Part shown: positions 5,378 to 48,066 of the stretch, in pieces
Numbering within the stretch: position 1 is the stretch's first letter
Layout: each line of letters starts with the position of its first letter
Source: Thalassococcus halodurans
GTDB lineage: Bacteria > Pseudomonadota > Alphaproteobacteria > Rhodobacterales > Rhodobacteraceae
Direction: 5' to 3'
NCBI RefSeq assembly: GCF_900108225.1
Contig: NZ_FNUZ01000001.1
Coordinates: forward strand, 806,001-870,000
Length of the DNA stretch: 64,000 nucleotides
Program-made: the position numbers and the translations under genes
Notes under the pieces: model-generated
What the model was told of the DNA's origin: nothing
Database searches by the model: none
The model's input: the letters and a program-made list of their open reading frames with translations, nothing else

Positions 5378-5517
5378 ATCGGGCCTTCTAATTTGCGGAA
5401 GCCGCCTGCATTTGTAACAATTGGCCTTCGTTTACACGAGGACGTGAAAGACTTGCAGCAAAACTTGCGCAACCGCCACAGCGATCACATTTTCGTTTGA
5501 AACCACGGAGGACCACA

Positions 5518-6204
5518 ATGGCCCAACTGAAAAATATTCTGCTGGTCGATGACGACGAAGACCTGCGCGAGGCGCTGGCCGAGCAACTTATTCTGACCGA
5601 AGACTTCGAAGTATTCGAGGCCGAAGACGGTGCCAGCGCGCTGGGACGCGTCAAGGAACAGCACTACGACCTGATCATTCTGGACGTCGGCCTGCCCGAC
5701 ACGGATGGTCGCGAGCTGTGCAAACTGATGCGCAAGCAGGGCGTGAAATCGCCGATCCTGATGCTGACGGGGCATGACTCGGACGCGGACACGATCCTTG
5801 GTCTGGATTCCGGCGCGAATGATTACGTGACCAAGCCGTTCAAGTTCCCTGTGCTTCTGGCCCGCATCCGCGCGCAACTGCGTCAGCACGAACAGTCCGA
5901 AGACGCGGTGTTCCAGTTGGGGCCGTATTCCTTCCGGCCAGCGATGAAGCTTCTGGTGACAGAAGACGACCGCAAGGTGCGCCTGACGGAAAAGGAAACC
6001 AATATCCTGAAATTCCTGTACCGCGCGCCCGACGGCATTGTGGCACGGGATGTGCTTTTGCATGAGGTGTGGGGTTACAACGCGGGCGTCACAACGCACA
6101 CGCTGGAAACCCACATCTACCGCCTGCGGCAGAAAATCGAGCCCGATCCGTCGAACGCGCGTCTTCTGGTTACCGAAAGCGGCGGTTACCGCCTTGTGTC
6201 ATAG
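5518..6204 (+). CDS. OmpR-family DNA-binding response regulator (orphan)
   Basis: A 228-residue two-domain regulator. The receiver domain (about 1-120) has the acidic pair D11-D12, phospho-acceptor D56 in LIILDVGLPD, and the conserved Lys in VTKPF. The C-terminal winged helix includes LTEKETNILKFLYRAPDGIVARDVL and HTLETHIYRLRQKIE. The ATG at 5518 is preceded by ACGGAGGA; seven more in-frame codons upstream are unsupported. No histidine kinase gene is adjacent, so the partner and targets are unknown. A hairpin and an intrinsic terminator follow. Confidence 0.9.
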   Translation: MAQLKNILLVDDDEDLREALAEQLILTEDFEVFEAEDGASALGRVKEQHYDLIILDVGLPDTDGRELCKLMRKQGVKSPILMLTGHDSDADTILGLDSGANDYVTKPFKFPVLLARIRAQLRQHEQSEDAVFQLGPYSFRPAMKLLVTEDDRKVRLTEKETNILKFLYRAPDGIVARDVLLHEVWGYNAGVTTHTLETHIYRLRQKIEPDPSNARLLVTESGGYRLVS

Positions 6205-6272
6205 GACACAGATTTTTGGGGTGATTAATGGAACTTTTAAAGTGTCCGTTGGTTACCCTGACAGTTCCCTTC

Positions 6273-6294
6273 GCATGTGAGGGTCATCACATGC
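6273..6294. repeat. perfect hairpin-forming inverted repeat
   Basis: GCATGTGA (6273-6280) and TCACATGC (6287-6294) form perfect 8-base arms around the loop GGGTCA. It lies 69 bases after the response regulator stop and 18 bases before a strong terminator. It is too far from the T-run to be the terminator itself, so it is either a second 3'-UTR structure or the first stem of a small RNA. Confidence 0.6.
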
Positions 6295-6312
6295 ACCCCT
6301 CCCTGTTGGACT

Positions 6313-6340
6313 GACCCGGGCAAGCCCCGGGTCTTTTTTT
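6313..6340 (+). terminator. intrinsic terminator after the response regulator
   Basis: GACCCGGG (6313-6320) and CCCGGGTC (6326-6333) make a perfect 8-base stem with loop CAAGC, followed directly by seven T residues. This is a textbook rho-independent terminator in plus orientation. It closes the response regulator transcript and isolates it from the KAP gene. Confidence 0.92.
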
Positions 6341-6456
6341 CCGGAGAACTAATCCCACACGTCAAAATTGCAGAAATCGGCTGTTCCCTCTTGAATAGGA
6401 GCAGTTCCCAGACTCTAATCCGTTGGATACTCGATTATTCAATTATTGGATTATTT

Positions 6457-7823
6457 ATGGCCAATTCTTCGCCTTGGAACGATGACCTTCTTGAGTTTTC
6501 AAAGATCGGCTCAACTTTCACGAACCTCATCAAGTCTCTGGACACCGAAAAGTTATCTCAATTGAGGCTGGGTTTGGTCGCGGGAAGACGTTTTTTCGAA
6601 AGGCATGGGCCCAGCAACTTAGAGATGCAGGTGAAAATGTAGTTGAAGTTGATGTCCAACTTTCAGACCACTCCGGCGACCCGATCGTCACATTGCTTGG
6701 CGCATTGGTCGACGCGATCCCTAAGAAAGATGCATCATCGGCTCAAAAGGCTTTTGCCTCAGCAAAACACATCGCAGCGCTCGGTGCCAAAAGTGCAACT
6801 CGGATAGTGTTGCGTTCTGCCGCCGACGAAGTAATTGATGCTTTCACAGATAGTGCGACTGATGCCCTAGGCGATTTTGATCATTTGAACGATGTCATCC
6901 AAGATTTCGGAGACAGTCTATCCAAAGCCGCCGGAAACCTGATCGCGTCCCAAATGGCCGCAGAAAAAATTCGGAAAATTGAACTTCCCGAACACATACA
7001 AACCCTAAGAACTGCCATCTGCGAAGGGTCTGATAGCGAACAGGTGGTTGTCATAATAGACGAACTGGACCGCTGTCACCCTGATTACGCATTGGCATTC
7101 CTTGAAGCCACAAAGTTGATTTTTTCTCAATCAGGCTTTGTGTTCTGTTTAATGGTAAACACTGAACACTTGGAAAACTTGGCCAATCATCGCTTTGGGC
7201 AAACGGAAGGCGATGAAGCATACCTTGAGAAATTTGTTGATATTCGACTCAAACTTGAGCCATCCAAAGAAGCACTAGCATCAGCGGTATCTCAACTTGT
7301 TCACAAGCTACCGGCAAAAAGACTATTTTCAGAACAAGCCGCGTTTTCATTGGAAAGCGCCGCTAAACTAGCAGTTAACCTGACGCAAAAAACCGGGATT
7401 GGAATGCGAAAAATCGAGCGCATTCTTCTCAGAGTCGAAATGGCATTGCGGTGTTACCCTGACCAATACTTCGACATACCACTGCTTATATATCTAGCAT
7501 TCGAGAACACATTAGATTCGAAGATTTCTACCGATGATCTTCCGAGAGCATCACTTACACCAGAACGCGCCCAAAACTTTCTATTGGATCGATCATTAGC
7601 TTCTGAAAATCCATTAAGTGAAAGGCCAGAGTCGCAGATGATGAGAGTAATTCGCGACGATTTTCCTGAGCTTCTCGAAATTCCGAGAGAGCGCTTCAAA
7701 TTCCCAGACGATAGGGACTACTTCGACTGGGCAAAAGTGTTTGCATTTTTGGCTCCTCACTACATTCCCAGTCACCAACATGCGCTAAACGCGGTGGCAG
7801 AACTTTTGGTCGAAGCTGAGTAA
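6457..7823 (+). pseudogene. KAP-family P-loop NTPase gene, split by a -1 frameshift
   Basis: An AT-rich gene unlike its neighbours in base composition. The first 31 or so codons from ATG 6457 (MANSSPWNDDLLEF...LDTEK) are in one frame. From about 6549 the family sequence continues in the -1 frame as VISIEAGFGRGKTFFRKAWA, with the Walker A-like GRGKT, then DVQLSDHSGDPIVTLLGALVDAI and the Walker B segment VVVIIDELDRCHPDYALAFLEA near 7047-7109, characteristic of KAP NTPases, and runs to the stop at 7823. Adding one A to the short A-run at 6548-6551 would restore a single frame of about 455 codons. KAP NTPases are membrane-linked or defence-associated ATPases. It may be a true pseudogene, a sequence error, or a recoded gene. 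No strong ribosome site is seen at 6457. Confidence 0.72.
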
Positions 7824-7874: not shown

Positions 7875-10016
7875 TTATTCCGCGTCTTCTTTTTTCTCTT
7901 CTTTTGCGGCTTCTTCGCCGGTCTCTTGGTCAACGACCTTCATCGACAGGCGAACCTTGCCGCGATCGTCGAAGCCCAGCAGCTTGACCCACACTTCCTG
8001 ACCTTCTTTCAGAACGTCGGACGGGTGGTTCAGGCGGCGGTTTTCGATCTGGGATACGTGTACCAGACCGTCGCGCTTGCCAAAGAAGTTCACGAAGGCG
8101 CCGAAGTCGACGATCTTCACAACTTTACCTTTGTAGATGCCGCCTTCTTCCGGCTCTGCCACGATCGAATAGATCATGTCATAGGCCTTTTTGATGGCCT
8201 CGCCGTTCGGGCTTGCGATCTTGATCACGCCGTCGTCGTTGATGTCGACTTTCGCGCCGGAGGTTTCCACGATCTCGCGGATGACCTTGCCGCCGGAACC
8301 GATCACTTCACGGATCTTGTCGGTCGGGATCTGCATGGTTTCGATGCGCGGCGCGTGGACCGAGAATTCGGACGCTTCTGTCAGCGACTTGGCCATCTCA
8401 CCCAGGATGTGCATACGGCCCGCTTTGGCCTGAGCCAGAGCTTTCTTCATGATCTCAGGCGTGATGCCTGCAACCTTGATGTCCATCTGCAGCGAGGTGA
8501 TGCCGTTTTCGGTACCAGCCACTTTGAAGTCCATGTCGCCGAGGTGATCTTCGTCACCCAGAATGTCTGTCAGAACGGCGTAGGAACCGTCATCTTCCAG
8601 AACCAGACCCATGGCCACACCGGCAACCGGTGCCTTCAGCGGAACGCCTGCGTCCATCATGGACAGCGAGCCACCACAAACCGACGCCATCGAGGACGAA
8701 CCGTTGGATTCGGTGATCTCGGATACAACGCGGATTGTGTAGGGGAAGTCTGTCGCCGCCGGCAGAACCGCCTGAAGCGCGCGCCATGCCAGTTTACCGT
8801 GACCGATTTCACGACGACCCGGCGAACCAACGCGACCCACTTCACCAACCGAATACGGAGGGAAGTTATAGTGCAGCAGGAAGTTCGAACGGAAGTTGCC
8901 GTGCAGCGCGTCGATGATCTGTTCGTCATCGCCGGTACCCAGAGTGGTCACAACCAGACCTTGGGTTTCGCCACGTGTGAACAGCGCGGAACCGTGTGTA
9001 CGGGGCAGCAGGCCTGTTTCACAAACGATGTCACGCACTTCGTCCAGCGCGCGGCCGTCGATACGCTTGCCTTCTTTCACAACTGTCGAACGCAGAACTG
9101 TGGATTCCAGCTTTTTCAGCGCAGAGCTGAGGTTCGCATCGGCCAGTTCTTCTTCGGACAGCTCAGCCTTGATCGCTTCTTTGGCAGCGGCAACAGCGGC
9201 AACGCGCTCTTGCTTGTCCAGAATGCTGTAGGCGGCTTTCATCTGGTCTGCACCCAGCGCGCTGACGCGCTCGTACAGGGCAGAGTAATCCGGCGGTGTG
9301 AATTCGAACGGCTCTTTCGCGGCATCTTCGGCCAGATCGATGATCAGGTCGATAACCGGCTGGATCTGTTCGTGCGCGAATGTCACGGCGCCCAGCATTT
9401 CGTCTTCGGTCAGTTCGTACGCTTCGGATTCAACCATCATCACGGCGTCTTTGGTACCGGCAACGACAAGGTCCAAACGCTGTTCAGGGTTGTTGCGCAG
9501 CTGATCCATATCCTCAACCTCAGGGTTCAGGATGTATTCGCCGTCAACATAGCCCACGCGGCAGCCCGCGATCGGGCCCATGAACGGTGCGCCCGAGATG
9601 GTGAGGGCAGCAGAGGCCGCGATCATCGCAACAACGTCGGGGTCGTTGACCAGGTCGTGGCTCAGAACGGTACACATCACCAGAACTTCGTTTTTGAAGC
9701 CGGGAACGAACAGCGGACGGATCGGACGGTCGATCAGACGCGCAGTCAGCGTCTCTTTTTCCGTCGGACGCGCTTCGCGCTTGAAGAAGCCACCCGGTAC
9801 TTTACCGGCAGCATAGTATTTCTCTTGGTAGTGAACGGTCAGCGGGAAGAAATCCTGACCTTCTTTTTGCGTCTTGGCAAAGGTCACGTTCGCCATGACC
9901 GAGGTTTCGCCAAGCGTCGCGATGACTGTGCCATCGGCCTGACGGGCAACCTTACCCGTTTCCAGTGTGAGCGTTTCCTCGCCCCACTGCATTGTTTTCT
10001 TCGTAACGTTAAACAT
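7875..10016 (-). CDS. pnp: polyribonucleotide nucleotidyltransferase
   Basis: A 713-residue PNPase: two RNase PH-like domains in the first 540 or so residues, then a KH domain ([20 protein letters not shown], about 555-575) and an S1 domain ([21 protein letters not shown], about 623-643) and an acidic/lysine-rich tail. It degrades RNA 3' to 5' by phosphorolysis in the RNA degradosome. I chose the ATG at 10016 (MFNVTKK) rather than an in-frame extension that would run 30 codons upstream. It lies downstream of rpsO, the standard rpsO-pnp order, with an intrinsic terminator between them. Confidence 0.96.
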
Positions 10017-10197
10017 CAGCGTTTCCTGTATGGGAGCGCTCCCGGCCCTCCGGGTCTCCCGTTTGAATGGCGGCCCCATTGCCGCCGACCCCTTCAATCT
10101 TTTCATGCGCCGGGGTCAAAGCGTCACGTCTCAGATGGGCGCCACATACACGACTTTGCGGCATATTGAAAGCCATTGCGCGTTTGGTGGGCGACCC

Positions 10198-10675: not shown

Positions 10676-11626
10676 CTAGACCCCGAAATCGCCCGCCAGC
10701 GTTTCAGGTGCCAGAACGATGTCGCTGACAAGGGGGGCCTGATCGGTCGGCACGGTACAGGCGATATCCCCGTTCAAAAGGATATTGGTGATCGCCGGAT
10801 TGTTCGCATCCTGTTCGATGCTCAGTTCGGGTTCGACGCCTGCGGTGTCGTCAAACAGAACGATGATCTGGTCTTCGGTACTATCGTAATCCATGAAATG
10901 CGCCGCTGCTCCGGTATCTGTGGCGTCCATGACAAAGCTGTCCGCCCCGTCGCCACCGGACACATAATCGCCCTGCCCGGCGACCAGCGTATCCGCGCCG
11001 TCACCGCCATTCAGAAAGTCGGTATCCGCATCATCGTTGCCATAGAGCACGTCATTGCCCCATGCGCCGAACAGCGTATCGATGCCTTCGCCGCCGGACA
11101 TCGTGTCATCGCCTTCGCGACCCATCAGCGCGTCATTCCCCGTGTCACCATTCAACACATCATTACCCAGACCACCGGTCAGGCTGTCATCACCCGCACC
11201 ACCTGAAAGACTGTCATCACCAGCGCATCCCTGCAGGTCGTCATTTCCATCGCCGCCTTCGATCCAGTCGCCGTCATCCTGACCTGCCATGGTGTCATTG
11301 CCATCGCCACCCGTCAGAAGGTCGCCGCCCGCGCCACCGCGTAGGACATCGTCGCCCGCGTCGCCATCTATCGCGTCCGCACCGTCGCCGCCATCCATAT
11401 GATCGGTTTCCGAACTACCGGTCAGATCATCTGCGCCGTTGCCCCCGCCGATGATCCATCCACCTGCGCCAGTGGCCTGAACGTCGCCGTCTTTCTTATC
11501 GTCAGACAGGTCATCGGCCAGCAGATCATCATCGGCGTCGCTGTCTTCATCAGGCATAGGCAGCGTGGCCAACATCGCTGTCGACCCCAACACCATCAAA
11601 CCCAAGAGACCCGATAAAAGAAGCAT
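10676..11626 (-). CDS. RTX-type calcium-binding repeat protein
   Basis: A 316-residue protein from ATG 11626. Residues 1-20 ([20 protein letters not shown]) form a hydrophobic anchor or signal segment, followed by an Asp-rich stretch and a Trp-Ile-Ile-Gly segment. About twelve GGxGxDxLxG nonapeptide repeats then follow, the parallel beta-roll that folds around calcium. The C-terminal 90 residues ([14 protein letters not shown]...) resemble the capping region of secreted RTX proteins. No type I secretion genes are near. A longer in-frame start exists but gives a low-complexity extension. Function unknown; surface or secreted location is an inference. Confidence 0.8.
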
Positions 11627-11700
11627 GTCCAATCCGCCACTGTTCAACCCGAACCAACACCAATCCGGTGAGTTAAGGCAAACACCTTCGGATTCCGTGG

Positions 11701-12183
11701 TTAATGATTTCCTGCATAGCGCGTGCCAACGGGCCAATCCTCGGGACGGGTTTTGTAGGACACATAAAGCGGGTGCCGCGGATGGCCGTCTTTGGTCAGG
11801 CCAAGGTGGGTCATTGGCCCCAATTTTGCGGCCAGATCGACGGCACGCCCCAGATGCGCACCATGCACACCCCACGCGGCGATCGTGGTGCCTGCAAGGT
11901 CATGCCACTGCAACAAAATCTGGTCATTGGCAGGGCCAACCGGATCTTTCGCCTTTTTCAGGTCCTCCGGTTTGGTGGCACGGAAGGCAAACAGATTAGC
12001 AATCATCACGCCGCCGAATCCCATGTCACGCGCACGGGTTTCGCAGCGATGGATTGTGGGGTCATTCTTTAGCTCGGTCGCCGTGGACGGGTTGAGCATA
12101 ATGAATAAAACTTGAGGGTTCTCGGCATTCCAGACGCGGCGGAGGCCATAGCGGTACCGTTCGCATCCGCTGTAAACCGCCAT
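11701..12183 (-). CDS. DUF1643 domain protein
   Basis: A 160-residue protein with the DUF1643 pattern: [18 protein letters not shown] at the N-terminus, then [20 protein letters not shown] and [21 protein letters not shown]. The function of the family is not known. The ATG at 12183 is the only ATG near the domain start, but the conserved sequence DGTES lies just before it in frame, so a non-ATG start up to 14 codons earlier (CTG at 12225) is possible. It sits directly downstream of truB on the same strand. Confidence 0.78.
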
Positions 12184-25666: not shown

Positions 25667-26509
25667 ATGAAAAACAAAGCGACATTCACCACAAGCGCCA
25701 TCGCGCTCATCGCCGCCATGTCGGCCACAGCCGCAAGCGCTCAAACACTGATCGGCCGCGACACAGTTGCGGAAGACCGCAACGAAGACCTCATCGAAGC
25801 CATCGAAGATGATGCCGAGCGCACACTGGACCGTTTCGGCAACGAAGGCCGCCCGCAAGGCTTCAACGGCTCGTTCGCCCTGCGCGGCATTGCCGAAAGC
25901 GGCAACAACGAAAGCGTCAACCTCGGCATCGGTTCGGACATCAACTATGTCTGGGGCCAGAACGGCATCGAGCTGCAGCTGAACTACGCCTACACCGATG
26001 ACGATGACTCTGATCCGGAAGAAAGCCTGTACTATGGTCTGGAATACACACGCGATTTCAACCCCGTCACATTCGGCTTTGCCAAAGTTCAGGGCTCGGT
26101 TGACAGCGCAACAGACGCACAGTTCGAAACAGACACATTCGTCAGCTTCGGCGCCGGTTACCGCATCTTCAACGAAGCCGACCGTCAGTGGTCTGTTCAG
26201 GCCGGCCCGGGCTACCGCTTTGCCGAACTGAACGACGTGACAAAAGGCGACGTCAGCGAAGGCGCGTTTGGCCTATCCTCTGACTTCGCCCAGAAACTGA
26301 CCGAAACTGTCGCGCTCACTGCGGACACAGACGTGATCTGGTCTGAATCGGACACCGTGGTCTTCAACGATCTGGCGATCAGCGTCGCTATGACAGACGC
26401 TCTGTCGCTGCGCACAAGCTTGCTGACCGAATACCACACCGAGCCCGGCACAGCGAAACACACCGACAACACCTTCGGCGTCTCGCTGGTCTACTCGTTC
26501 AACCAATAA
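25667..26509 (+). CDS. DUF481-type outer-membrane beta-barrel protein
   Basis: A 280-residue protein with a signal peptide ending ATAASAQ (residues 20-26). The rest shows alternating polar/aromatic strands ending in a Phe-rich C-terminal strand (GVSLVYSFNQ), as in DUF481/YdiY-like barrels, which are induced salt or acid-responsive outer-membrane proteins in some bacteria. It is preceded by GGGAAAGGAAAACC. A GCCGGAGGCAG/CTGCCCCCGGC hairpin follows at 26527-26553 but lacks a T-run. Confidence 0.8.
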   Translation: MKNKATFTTSAIALIAAMSATAASAQTLIGRDTVAEDRNEDLIEAIEDDAERTLDRFGNEGRPQGFNGSFALRGIAESGNNESVNLGIGSDINYVWGQNGIELQLNYAYTDDDDSDPEESLYYGLEYTRDFNPVTFGFAKVQGSVDSATDAQFETDTFVSFGAGYRIFNEADRQWSVQAGPGYRFAELNDVTKGDVSEGAFGLSSDFAQKLTETVALTADTDVIWSESDTVVFNDLAISVAMTDALSLRTSLLTEYHTEPGTAKHTDNTFGVSLVYSFNQ

Positions 26510-32912: not shown

Positions 32913-32946
32913 GAACGCGAGGCTTTCACCTCGCGTTCTTTTTTGT
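32913..32946 (+). terminator. intrinsic terminator after the MscS channel gene
   Basis: GAACGCGAGG (32913-32922) and CCTCGCGTTC (32929-32938) make a perfect 10-base stem with loop CTTTCA, followed by TTTTTTTT. It lies 20 bases after the stop. Confidence 0.93.
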
Positions 32947-32995
32947 CTCGTCCTTCGCCTCCGGCTACGTCCTCGGGCTGGCGCTGACCCCCATG

Positions 32996-33016
32996 GTATT
33001 TTCTGCCCGGAAATAC
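32996..33016. repeat. dispersed AAATAC/GTATTT palindromic element, copy 1
   Basis: GTATTT-TCTGCCCGG-AAATAC, with perfect 6-base arms, lies between the convergent MscS and dimethylglycine dehydrogenase genes, followed by CTCGGGGG. The near-identical copy 2 is at 48016-48036, again in a spacer. It may be a small interspersed repeat used in transcript ends. Confidence 0.55.
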
Positions 33017-33065
33017 CTCGGGGGAATTGGCCGCAGGCCAAGGGGGCAGAGCCCCCTAGCCCTTA

Positions 33066-35570
33066 TCAGCCGTCGACGCGGATCGTTGCGTTCTTCGGAT
33101 CGTACGGGCTGTCCTCGGTCACTTCGGCATCCCAAAGCTCTTTGAACAACCGCACCTTCAGCTTGGTGCCCGGCTCTGCCAGTTCCGGTTTAACATAGCC
33201 CATACCGATGGACTTGCCGAAGGCCGCAGACCAGCCACCGGATGTCAGACGACCCACACGTGTTCCGTCCTCTGTGTACAGCGCCTCGCGGCCCCATGGA
33301 TCCGCGTCCTCGGGTCCATCGATCAGAAGCGTCACACATTTGGAGCGGATGCCGGTTTTGACCATCGCGTCCTTGCCGTAGAAATCCTTGTCCAGATCGA
33401 CAAAGCGGTCCAGTCCGGCCTCGAGCGGGGTCGCATCGCGGCCCAATTCGGTGCCGAAGGCGCGGTAGGATTTTTCCTGACGCAGCCAGTTCTGAGCGCG
33501 GGCACCGACCAGTTTCAGGCCATGCTTTTCGCCCTCTTTCAGCAGCAGGTCCCAAAGGTAGTTCTGCATTTCGATGGGGTGGTGCAATTCCCAGCCAAGC
33601 TCACCGGTGTACGCCACACGGATCGCGTTGACGGGGCACATACCCAGTTCGATCTGACGGTAGGACAGCCACGGGAAGCGTTTGTTGGACAGGGCCGTTT
33701 CCGGATCAGCGTCCTTGATCAGACCTTTCAGCAGATCCCGCGCTTTCGGGCCCGCAAGGGCGAAGACACCGTATTGCGATGTCACGTCCTGAAGATTGAT
33801 GCGGCCGAACTCGGGCTCTTTGTCTTCAATCGCCTTCTTCAGATAGTCCTGATCGTAGGCGTGCCATGCACCTGCCGAGACAAGGTAATAGTCGTCCTCG
33901 CCTTCGCGCACGATGGTGTATTCGGTGCGCGTGGTGCCTGCGCTGGTCAGAGCGTAGGTCAGGTTGATGCGGCCAACCTTGGGCAGCTTGTTGGTGGTGA
34001 ACCAGTCAAGGAACGCTGTCGCACCCGGACCGCTGAGGCGGTGCTTGGTGAAGGCCGTTGCGTCGATCAGGCCCACGCCTTCGCGGATCGCCTTGGCCTC
34101 GTCTGCCGCATACTGCCACCAGCCACCACGGCGGAACGAACGTGCGTCGTGGTCAAAGTTGTCGTCTGCATCCAGCGGACCGTAGTAGTTGGGGCGTTCC
34201 CAACCGTTGACCACGCCAAACTGGGCGCCCTTTGCTTTCTGACGATCATAGGCCGGGCCTGTGCGCAACGGGCGGCAGGCGGGGCGTTCTTCGTCGGGGT
34301 GGTGCAGGATGTAGACGTGTTCATATGCTTCTTCGTTTTTACGAGCAGCATATTCGGTCGTCATCCAGGACCCGTAGCGTTTCGGATCAAGCGATGCCAT
34401 GTCGATCTCGGCTTCGCCTTCGACCATCAGCTGGGCAAGGTAGTGACCTGCGCCGCCAGCAGCCGTGATCCCAAACGAAAAGCCTTCGGCCAGCCACATG
34501 TTGCGCAGACCCGGTGCCGGACCGATCAGCGGGTTGCCATCAGGGGTGTAGCAGATCGGGCCGTTGAAATCGTCCTTCAGACCCACCGTTTCCGACGATG
34601 GAATACGGTGGATCATAGACATGTATTCTTCTTCGATCCGGTCCAGATCAAGCGGGAACAGATCGGCGCGGAAGCTGTCGGGGACGCCGTATTCAAAGCA
34701 CGCCGGTGCATTCAGTTCGTAGGGGCCAAGGATCCAGCCGCCGCGTTCTTCACGCACGTACCATTTCGCGTCGGCATCGCGCAGAACGGGGTGCTGTTCG
34801 TTGCCCGCTTCGCGATAGGCCAACAGGGCCGGATCGGGTTCCGTCACGATGAACTGGTGTTCGACCGGAATCGCGGGGATCTTGATGCCAAGCATTTTGG
34901 CCGTGCGTTGTGCGTGGTTGCCTGTGGCCGTGACCACATGTTCTGCACTGATGACGGTTTGTTCGTCGGACGGCACAAGGTTGCCGCCCTTTTCGACCAT
35001 CTTGGTAACTGTCACGTCCCAGTGGTCACCTTTCCACTCATAGCCATCAACCTGCCACTTGCGTTCGATGGTCACGCCACGCTGGCGCGCGCCCTTGGCC
35101 ATCGCCATGGTGACGTCGGCAGGGTTAATATAGCCATCGGTCGGGTGATAGATCGCGCCCTTCAGGTCTTCTGTGTTGACCAGCGGCCACCGTTCTTTGA
35201 TTTGATCGGGCGTCATCCATTCGTACGGAACCCCAACGGTTTCTGCCGTTGTTGCATAGACCATGTATTCGTCCATGCGTTCGTCTGTCTGCGCCATACG
35301 CAGGTTACCAACCACAAAGAAGCCAGCGTTCAGGCCGGTTTCTTCCTCAAGCGTTTTGTAGAACTTGATCGAGTAATCGTGGATGTGGGTCGTCGCGTAG
35401 GACATGTTGAAATAGGGCAAAAGGCCCGCAGCATGCCACGTCGAGCCTGAGGTCAGCTCGTCGCGTTCCAGCAACATTACATCAGACCAGCCCGCTCGGG
35501 CCAAATGATATGCGATGGACGTGCCGACCGCACCGCCCCCGACAACAAGCGCTTTGACGTTGGTTTTCAT
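33066..35570 (-). CDS. dimethylglycine/sarcosine dehydrogenase-type FAD enzyme
   Basis: An 834-residue two-part enzyme. The N-terminal DAO-type FAD domain (ALVVGGGAVGTSIAYHLARAGW at about 6-27) includes SGSTWHAAGLLPYF, where the His is the usual site of covalent FAD in dimethylglycine dehydrogenases. The C-terminal GcvT-like half (AYDQDYLKKAIEDKE, YTGELGWELHHP, GLDRFVDLDKDFYGK) takes up the one-carbon unit on tetrahydrofolate. It demethylates dimethylglycine or a related N-methyl amine, a common osmolyte-catabolism step in roseobacters. ATG 35570 is preferred. It is divergent from mreB over 312 bases. Confidence 0.87.
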   Translation of the reverse strand: MKTNVKALVVGGGAVGTSIAYHLARAGWSDVMLLERDELTSGSTWHAAGLLPYFNMSYATTHIHDYSIKFYKTLEEETGLNAGFFVVGNLRMAQTDERMDEYMVYATTAETVGVPYEWMTPDQIKERWPLVNTEDLKGAIYHPTDGYINPADVTMAMAKGARQRGVTIERKWQVDGYEWKGDHWDVTVTKMVEKGGNLVPSDEQTVISAEHVVTATGNHAQRTAKMLGIKIPAIPVEHQFIVTEPDPALLAYREAGNEQHPVLRDADAKWYVREERGGWILGPYELNAPACFEYGVPDSFRADLFPLDLDRIEEEYMSMIHRIPSSETVGLKDDFNGPICYTPDGNPLIGPAPGLRNMWLAEGFSFGITAAGGAGHYLAQLMVEGEAEIDMASLDPKRYGSWMTTEYAARKNEEAYEHVYILHHPDEERPACRPLRTGPAYDRQKAKGAQFGVVNGWERPNYYGPLDADDNFDHDARSFRRGGWWQYAADEAKAIREGVGLIDATAFTKHRLSGPGATAFLDWFTTNKLPKVGRINLTYALTSAGTTRTEYTIVREGEDDYYLVSAGAWHAYDQDYLKKAIEDKEPEFGRINLQDVTSQYGVFALAGPKARDLLKGLIKDADPETALSNKRFPWLSYRQIELGMCPVNAIRVAYTGELGWELHHPIEMQNYLWDLLLKEGEKHGLKLVGARAQNWLRQEKSYRAFGTELGRDATPLEAGLDRFVDLDKDFYGKDAMVKTGIRSKCVTLLIDGPEDADPWGREALYTEDGTRVGRLTSGGWSAAFGKSIGMGYVKPELAEPGTKLKVRLFKELWDAEVTEDSPYDPKNATIRVDG

Positions 35571-48015: not shown

Positions 48016-48036
48016 GTATTTTCTGTCCACAAATAC
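48016..48036. repeat. dispersed AAATAC/GTATTT palindromic element, copy 2
   Basis: GTATTT-TCTGTCCAC-AAATAC with perfect 6-base arms, followed by CTCCGCCGGAGGC, itself a short palindrome. It lies in the spacer between the SDR stop and the ligase start. Arms and most of the centre match the copy at 32996-33016. Confidence 0.55.
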
Positions 48037-48066
48037 CTCCGCCGGAGGCATCCCGCCCACGGGGCC

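Follow-up and report, generated by a model that had tools for sequence, protein, structure and literature searches.

A stand-alone PDC-S20-type KAP ATPase gene of Thalassococcus halodurans, probably gained recently and then inactivated by a one-base deletion

PifA of the F plasmid, which excludes phage T7, belongs to the KAP family. The product of the KAP gene at positions 6457–7823 of the window (the whole 64,000-nucleotide stretch of DNA analyzed here, from the marine-type alphaproteobacterium Thalassococcus halodurans) is a KAP P-loop NTPase like PifA, but the match between the two was weak (6.2e-08), and the alignment to the 720-position PifA model was limited to the NTPase part. QatA of the Qat anti-phage system has the Walker B region in common with the window protein (about 6e-10), which scored 36.8 bits, far below the curated cut-off of 600; recurrent Qat-like operon partners were not seen beside the KAP relatives. 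Tmn combines a KAP-family NTPase with transmembrane domains and provides defense against a number of coliphages (PMC11846954). It shares with the window protein both the family and the single-protein layout, but carries a transmembrane segment that is absent from the window's subfamily. According to the title of Aravind 2004, as cited in PMC11846954, transmembrane segments are inserted in the NTPase domain of many KAP proteins. In 23 relatives of the window protein, no transmembrane-like segment was detected, as no 19-residue stretch exceeded a mean hydropathy of 1.52. Their absence lowers only the resemblance to the transmembrane branch of the KAP family; membership in the Pfam family does not require such segments.

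Whole-protein matches were obtained with PDC-S20 (1.9e-47) and phrog_8614 (1.9e-41), covering residues 1–325 and 1–303 of the second part of the broken protein, respectively. Both are likewise stand-alone genes of the same length class (models of 446–489 aa). PADLOC returned matches to four PDC-S20 models, the best at 1.9e-47, and the neighbors of the relatives included no fixed partner gene, as expected for a stand-alone system. Unlike the PDC-S20 and phrog_8614 models, the window copy is frame-broken: it has no complete ORF, one base having been lost before Walker A, and is a broken member of the group. A literature search retrieved no functional paper on PDC-S20 and no experiment on the subfamily, and PDC-S20 is a candidate label only. 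The PADLOC match strengthened the link to defense that an earlier note on this DNA had drawn from the family. Judged by the PDC-S20 label and by relatives such as PifA and Tmn, an intact relative would most likely act in ATP-driven phage sensing or growth arrest, and we infer a defense role for the KAP gene.

The larger part of the gene encodes 423 aa (6552–7823, + strand). This second-frame protein matched Pfam KAP_NTPase PF07693 with an E-value of 1.9e-28 and 100 bits against a cut-off of 20, over profile positions 22–287 of 293. Its translation contains Walker A (GFGRGKT, 6570–6590, +) and Walker B (VVVIIDELDR, 7044–7073, +), both in frame from 6552. Walker A is conserved in the relatives, and at Walker B their DELDRCHP is nearly invariant. 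The earlier note was therefore right in naming a KAP-family P-loop NTPase with these motifs. The structure predicted for an intact relative (mean pLDDT 82.8) has the N-terminal stretch as a helix packed directly before the Walker A strand and thus as part of the fold. A sequence search against solved structures gave no match, and Foldseek detected only generic AAA+/ORC and RdrA (RADAR) similarity, whose low TM-scores were not enough to assign a mechanism. No second KAP copy was found in the genome.

The 5′ part of the gene lies in the first frame. Opened by ATG 6457, it starts with MANSSPWNDDLLEFSKIGSTFTNLIKSLDTEK and, up to 6551, shows homology to intact relatives at their N-terminus (MANSS to DTE and two bases into the Lys codon; +). 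This frame falls out of register at 6550–6552, runs past the Lys codon as LSQLRLGLVAGRRFF... and stops at 6642. The second frame reads VISIEAGFGRGKTFFRKAWAQQLRDAGENVVEVD... from GTT 6552 and is open as far as TAA 7821–7823. Within the KAP gene, the change of frame leads from DTEK (ending at 6551/6552) to VISIEAGFGRGKT (from 6552). About 30 Rhodobacteraceae relatives (36–58% identical along the full length) read K and VISIEA in a single frame, so the window is one base short. The GTDB genome scan provided 29 close relatives, nearly all full length, and more were added by a family search. The segment [K/R]VISIEAGFGxGKTFF was uninterrupted in all alignable intact relatives, and every relative covering the junction was continuous there, the two-frame layout being absent. 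The stretch W..D.L.Y..IG..FT.L..S.D..K (in fuller form W..D.L.Y..IG..FTNLI.SID..K) is conserved before the junction. Since both sides of the join are homologous, the break is attributed to the loss of one base and not to chance.

The −1 frame break described earlier just ahead of Walker A is thus real, with about 30 relatives continuous through the junction, and the proposed check by alignment to intact KAP homologues showed that the residues on both sides of the join are conserved. The earlier placement of the change in the A-run at 6548–6551 held as regards the loss of one base, but not as regards the run as its sole site. At the codon level, the relatives use AAA GTN as well as AAG GTN at the junction, so the loss cannot be placed in the A-run. 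At the affected site (AAAAG before TTATC, 6548–6552, +), the lost base may equally be an A of the run or the G of AAG|GTT. The second frame is indeed open for 1.27 kb, as had been stated, but its first start codon is TTG 6693, beyond Walker A; no ATG, GTG, or TTG occurs in this frame between the upstream stop and the motif. Therefore, ordinary initiation cannot yield a working ATPase without a frame change.

Such a frame change could be supplied by programmed −1 frameshifting, in which a slip on A_AAG (6549–6552) makes the full-length ATPase at a low level. We consider this highly improbable. The slip from AAG to AAA yields exactly the homologous DTEKVISIEA, but this identity is no evidence for a programmed slip, since the same product is expected after any one-base loss at this point. 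The downstream stem folds somewhat better than shuffled sequences (z about −2), but the same holds for about 6% of ordinary window stretches of 88 nt, and a fold of similar strength was present in only 3 of 24 relatives, which do not share it consistently. The sequence C GAA AAG (then TTA) does not have the form X XXY YYZ, which leaves no slippery heptamer, and the two-frame arrangement was seen in no relative. The A_AAG tetramer, the only slip-prone element, could allow some weak, low-level ribosomal slip. A further variant, in which the defense ATPase is kept nearly silent and made in traces through rare −1 slips on A_AAG until slippage rises under phage attack, is more improbable still. Recoding was rejected on the basis of the codon comparison, the RNA folding, and the background of ordinary window stretches.

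Defense genes are costly, and they can be switched in some bacteria. A phase-variable switch at the A-run would draw on this behavior and on the coincidence of the frame change with a homopolymer, but it has hardly any probability in our assessment. With its four bases, the run is not a contingency tract; it is one of 24 runs of at least four bases in the gene, and four six-base runs in the same gene are unbroken. Moreover, the lost base possibly lay outside the run, and the broken relatives carry their lesions elsewhere, none at the site of the window. The phase-variable or recoded NTPase envisaged in the earlier note was consequently not supported: the short run, the intact six-base runs, and the breaks elsewhere in relatives argue against switching, and the absent heptamer, the fold not shared consistently, and the single-frame relatives argue against recoding. 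Each retains a chance that is slim at most.

A one-base gap beside a short homopolymer is also typical of sequencing error, and the KAP gene is otherwise undamaged and retains both Walker motifs; the missing base could accordingly be a sequencing or assembly error in a gene that is intact in the organism. This is unlikely, though not negligible. A four-base run is an improbable error site, and the KAP family is often broken. The window was compared with the genome of the sister species (G001), which is about 95% identical to it across the roughly 48 kb aligned. We found no frame-changing indel without compensation that lay clearly within another coding gene; the alignment was ragged in one stretch at the start of the ORF at 25667, and the other indels were compensating pairs or intergenic. 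The assembly, with its error rate estimated from the window alone, is therefore not error-rich, which makes a true mutation more likely; one isolated assembly error is possible. We infer a real mutation, and a recent one, because the window copy keeps 75 of the 80 near-invariant residues in addition to both Walker motifs. Recent decay had been among the options listed in the earlier note, and it is the right one in our reading.

The KAP gene occupies a segment with well-defined borders. To its left lies an OmpR-type response regulator gene (5497–6204, +; Response_reg and Trans_reg_C by Pfam), whose protein is identical in the sister species, followed by the SorX small RNA with its terminator (6266–6339, +; Rfam RF02784, 72.9 bits). 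A terminator-like site with a T-run is found within the SorX region (6313–6333). In Rhodobacter sphaeroides, SorX is cut from the ompR-1 3′ UTR (PMC8625941), and here it is likewise located in the 3′ UTR of the response regulator gene. The right neighbor is the convergent, intact pnp gene for polynucleotide phosphorylase (7875–10106, −; from the ORF list), of which 94–98% identical pieces stand beside the response regulator in the sister species and in the next relative with this pair of neighbors (G026). The inserted segment of 1,481 bp (6341–7821) is missing from the sister species, where 32 bp replaces it (site L071) between flanks that are 98% identical up to 6340 and 97% identical from 7822. 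In G026, the response regulator adjoins pnp without a KAP gene. On the strength of these two sites, the segment was most likely gained in the lineage of the window.

The left edge of the insert is one base past the SorX RNA; on the right, the insert is bounded by the A-run of the pnp terminator, and this run provides the last two bases of the KAP stop codon. Neither repeats nor an integrase were found at the edges. The insertion left SorX intact (region 6266–6341), so that the 3′ end of a UTR-derived small RNA forms an insertion edge. Phage and plasmid collections contained no close copy of the KAP gene, the best being 44% identical on two Tritonibacter plasmids. Phage matches to the protein stayed below 30% identity with the exception of one short match, and viral contigs held no close copy. 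A prophage origin of the segment was thus not supported.

The relatives form two branches. In the first, with about 21 Rhodobacteraceae genomes and 42–48% identity to the window, rpsA follows immediately on the gene and cmk usually precedes it. The other branch, to which the window belongs (53–58% identical), is scattered across unrelated sites. The housekeeping genes cmk and rpsA were the recurrent neighbors, in one branch only, and none recurred in the branch of the window. The position directly upstream of rpsA (L022, L023, L026–L029, L031–L035, L037, L041, L046–L049, L073, L074, and L077) is a stable place for a defense-candidate gene beside a core translation gene.

Broken copies made up 10 of the 38 close relatives, the window included, with unrelated lesions in different places; some of the broken relatives are metagenome assemblies, and a few of these breaks may be errors. 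Besides the one-base frameshift of the window, frameshifts were found in L030 and G242 (L074), and in-frame stops in L025 and G191 (L073). G002 (L072, L012) combines a TGA stop with an interruption across two contig ends. The KAP gene of L024 is interrupted by an IS4/5-type (IS5-type) transposase insertion and that of L039 (the same locus as G213) by an rve-transposase insertion, while L040 and G403 (L077) are truncated. Among distant KAP relatives, 3 of 28 were broken, a rough count made by eye. The difference from the close relatives was not significant (Fisher p = 0.13), and a lower frequency of breakage in the distant relatives is suggestive.

We therefore favor a recent gain followed by a recent inactivation: very probably, a stand-alone PDC-S20-type KAP ATPase gene entered this lineage and then lost its function through a one-base deletion. 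The sequence itself shows the loss of frame, homology across the join, an unoccupied site in the sister species, the family match, and repeated independent breakage in relatives. The segment that brought it in would have carried this gene alone and settled between the terminators of SorX and pnp. The intact protein, about 455 aa long, would open with the conserved helix that runs into the Walker A strand, continue with a P-loop core of the RecA/AAA-like type that lacks transmembrane segments, and close with a helical region at the C-terminus. If PifA, QatA, Tmn, and further P-loop defense ATPases are a guide, it would probably use ATP to sense phage infection or to act as an effector against it. 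The deletion immediately ahead of the P-loop would then have inactivated the gene: translation would give a dead peptide of 61 aa, and a restart at TTG 6693 would lack Walker A and so have no ATPase activity. Relaxed or fluctuating selection may have been the cause.

A single case of this kind amounts to one broken defense-candidate gene and has small weight alone. The locus is a clean example of the gain and inactivation of a single-gene defense candidate, with the sister site empty and about one quarter of the close relatives broken, a pattern that fits a gene sometimes useful and otherwise costly.

Elsewhere in the window, an ArsR/HTH_20-type regulator gene overlaps a gene for an ArsP_1-type permease (1333–2692, +), a pair likely to serve metal or organoarsenical efflux. 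Beside rpsO and truB, a probably secreted protein with four stretches of RTX calcium-binding repeats (Pfam HemolysinCabind) is encoded at 10676–11875 (−). A dispersed repeat of about 60–115 bp at 32930–33066 recurs at 17 places in the genome and at no fewer than a dozen in that of the sister species; it can fold into hairpins and matched no Rfam family. A short intergenic stretch at 48016–48056 recurs on several contigs of the sister genome at 90–100% identity and perhaps belongs to a similar dispersed repeat.
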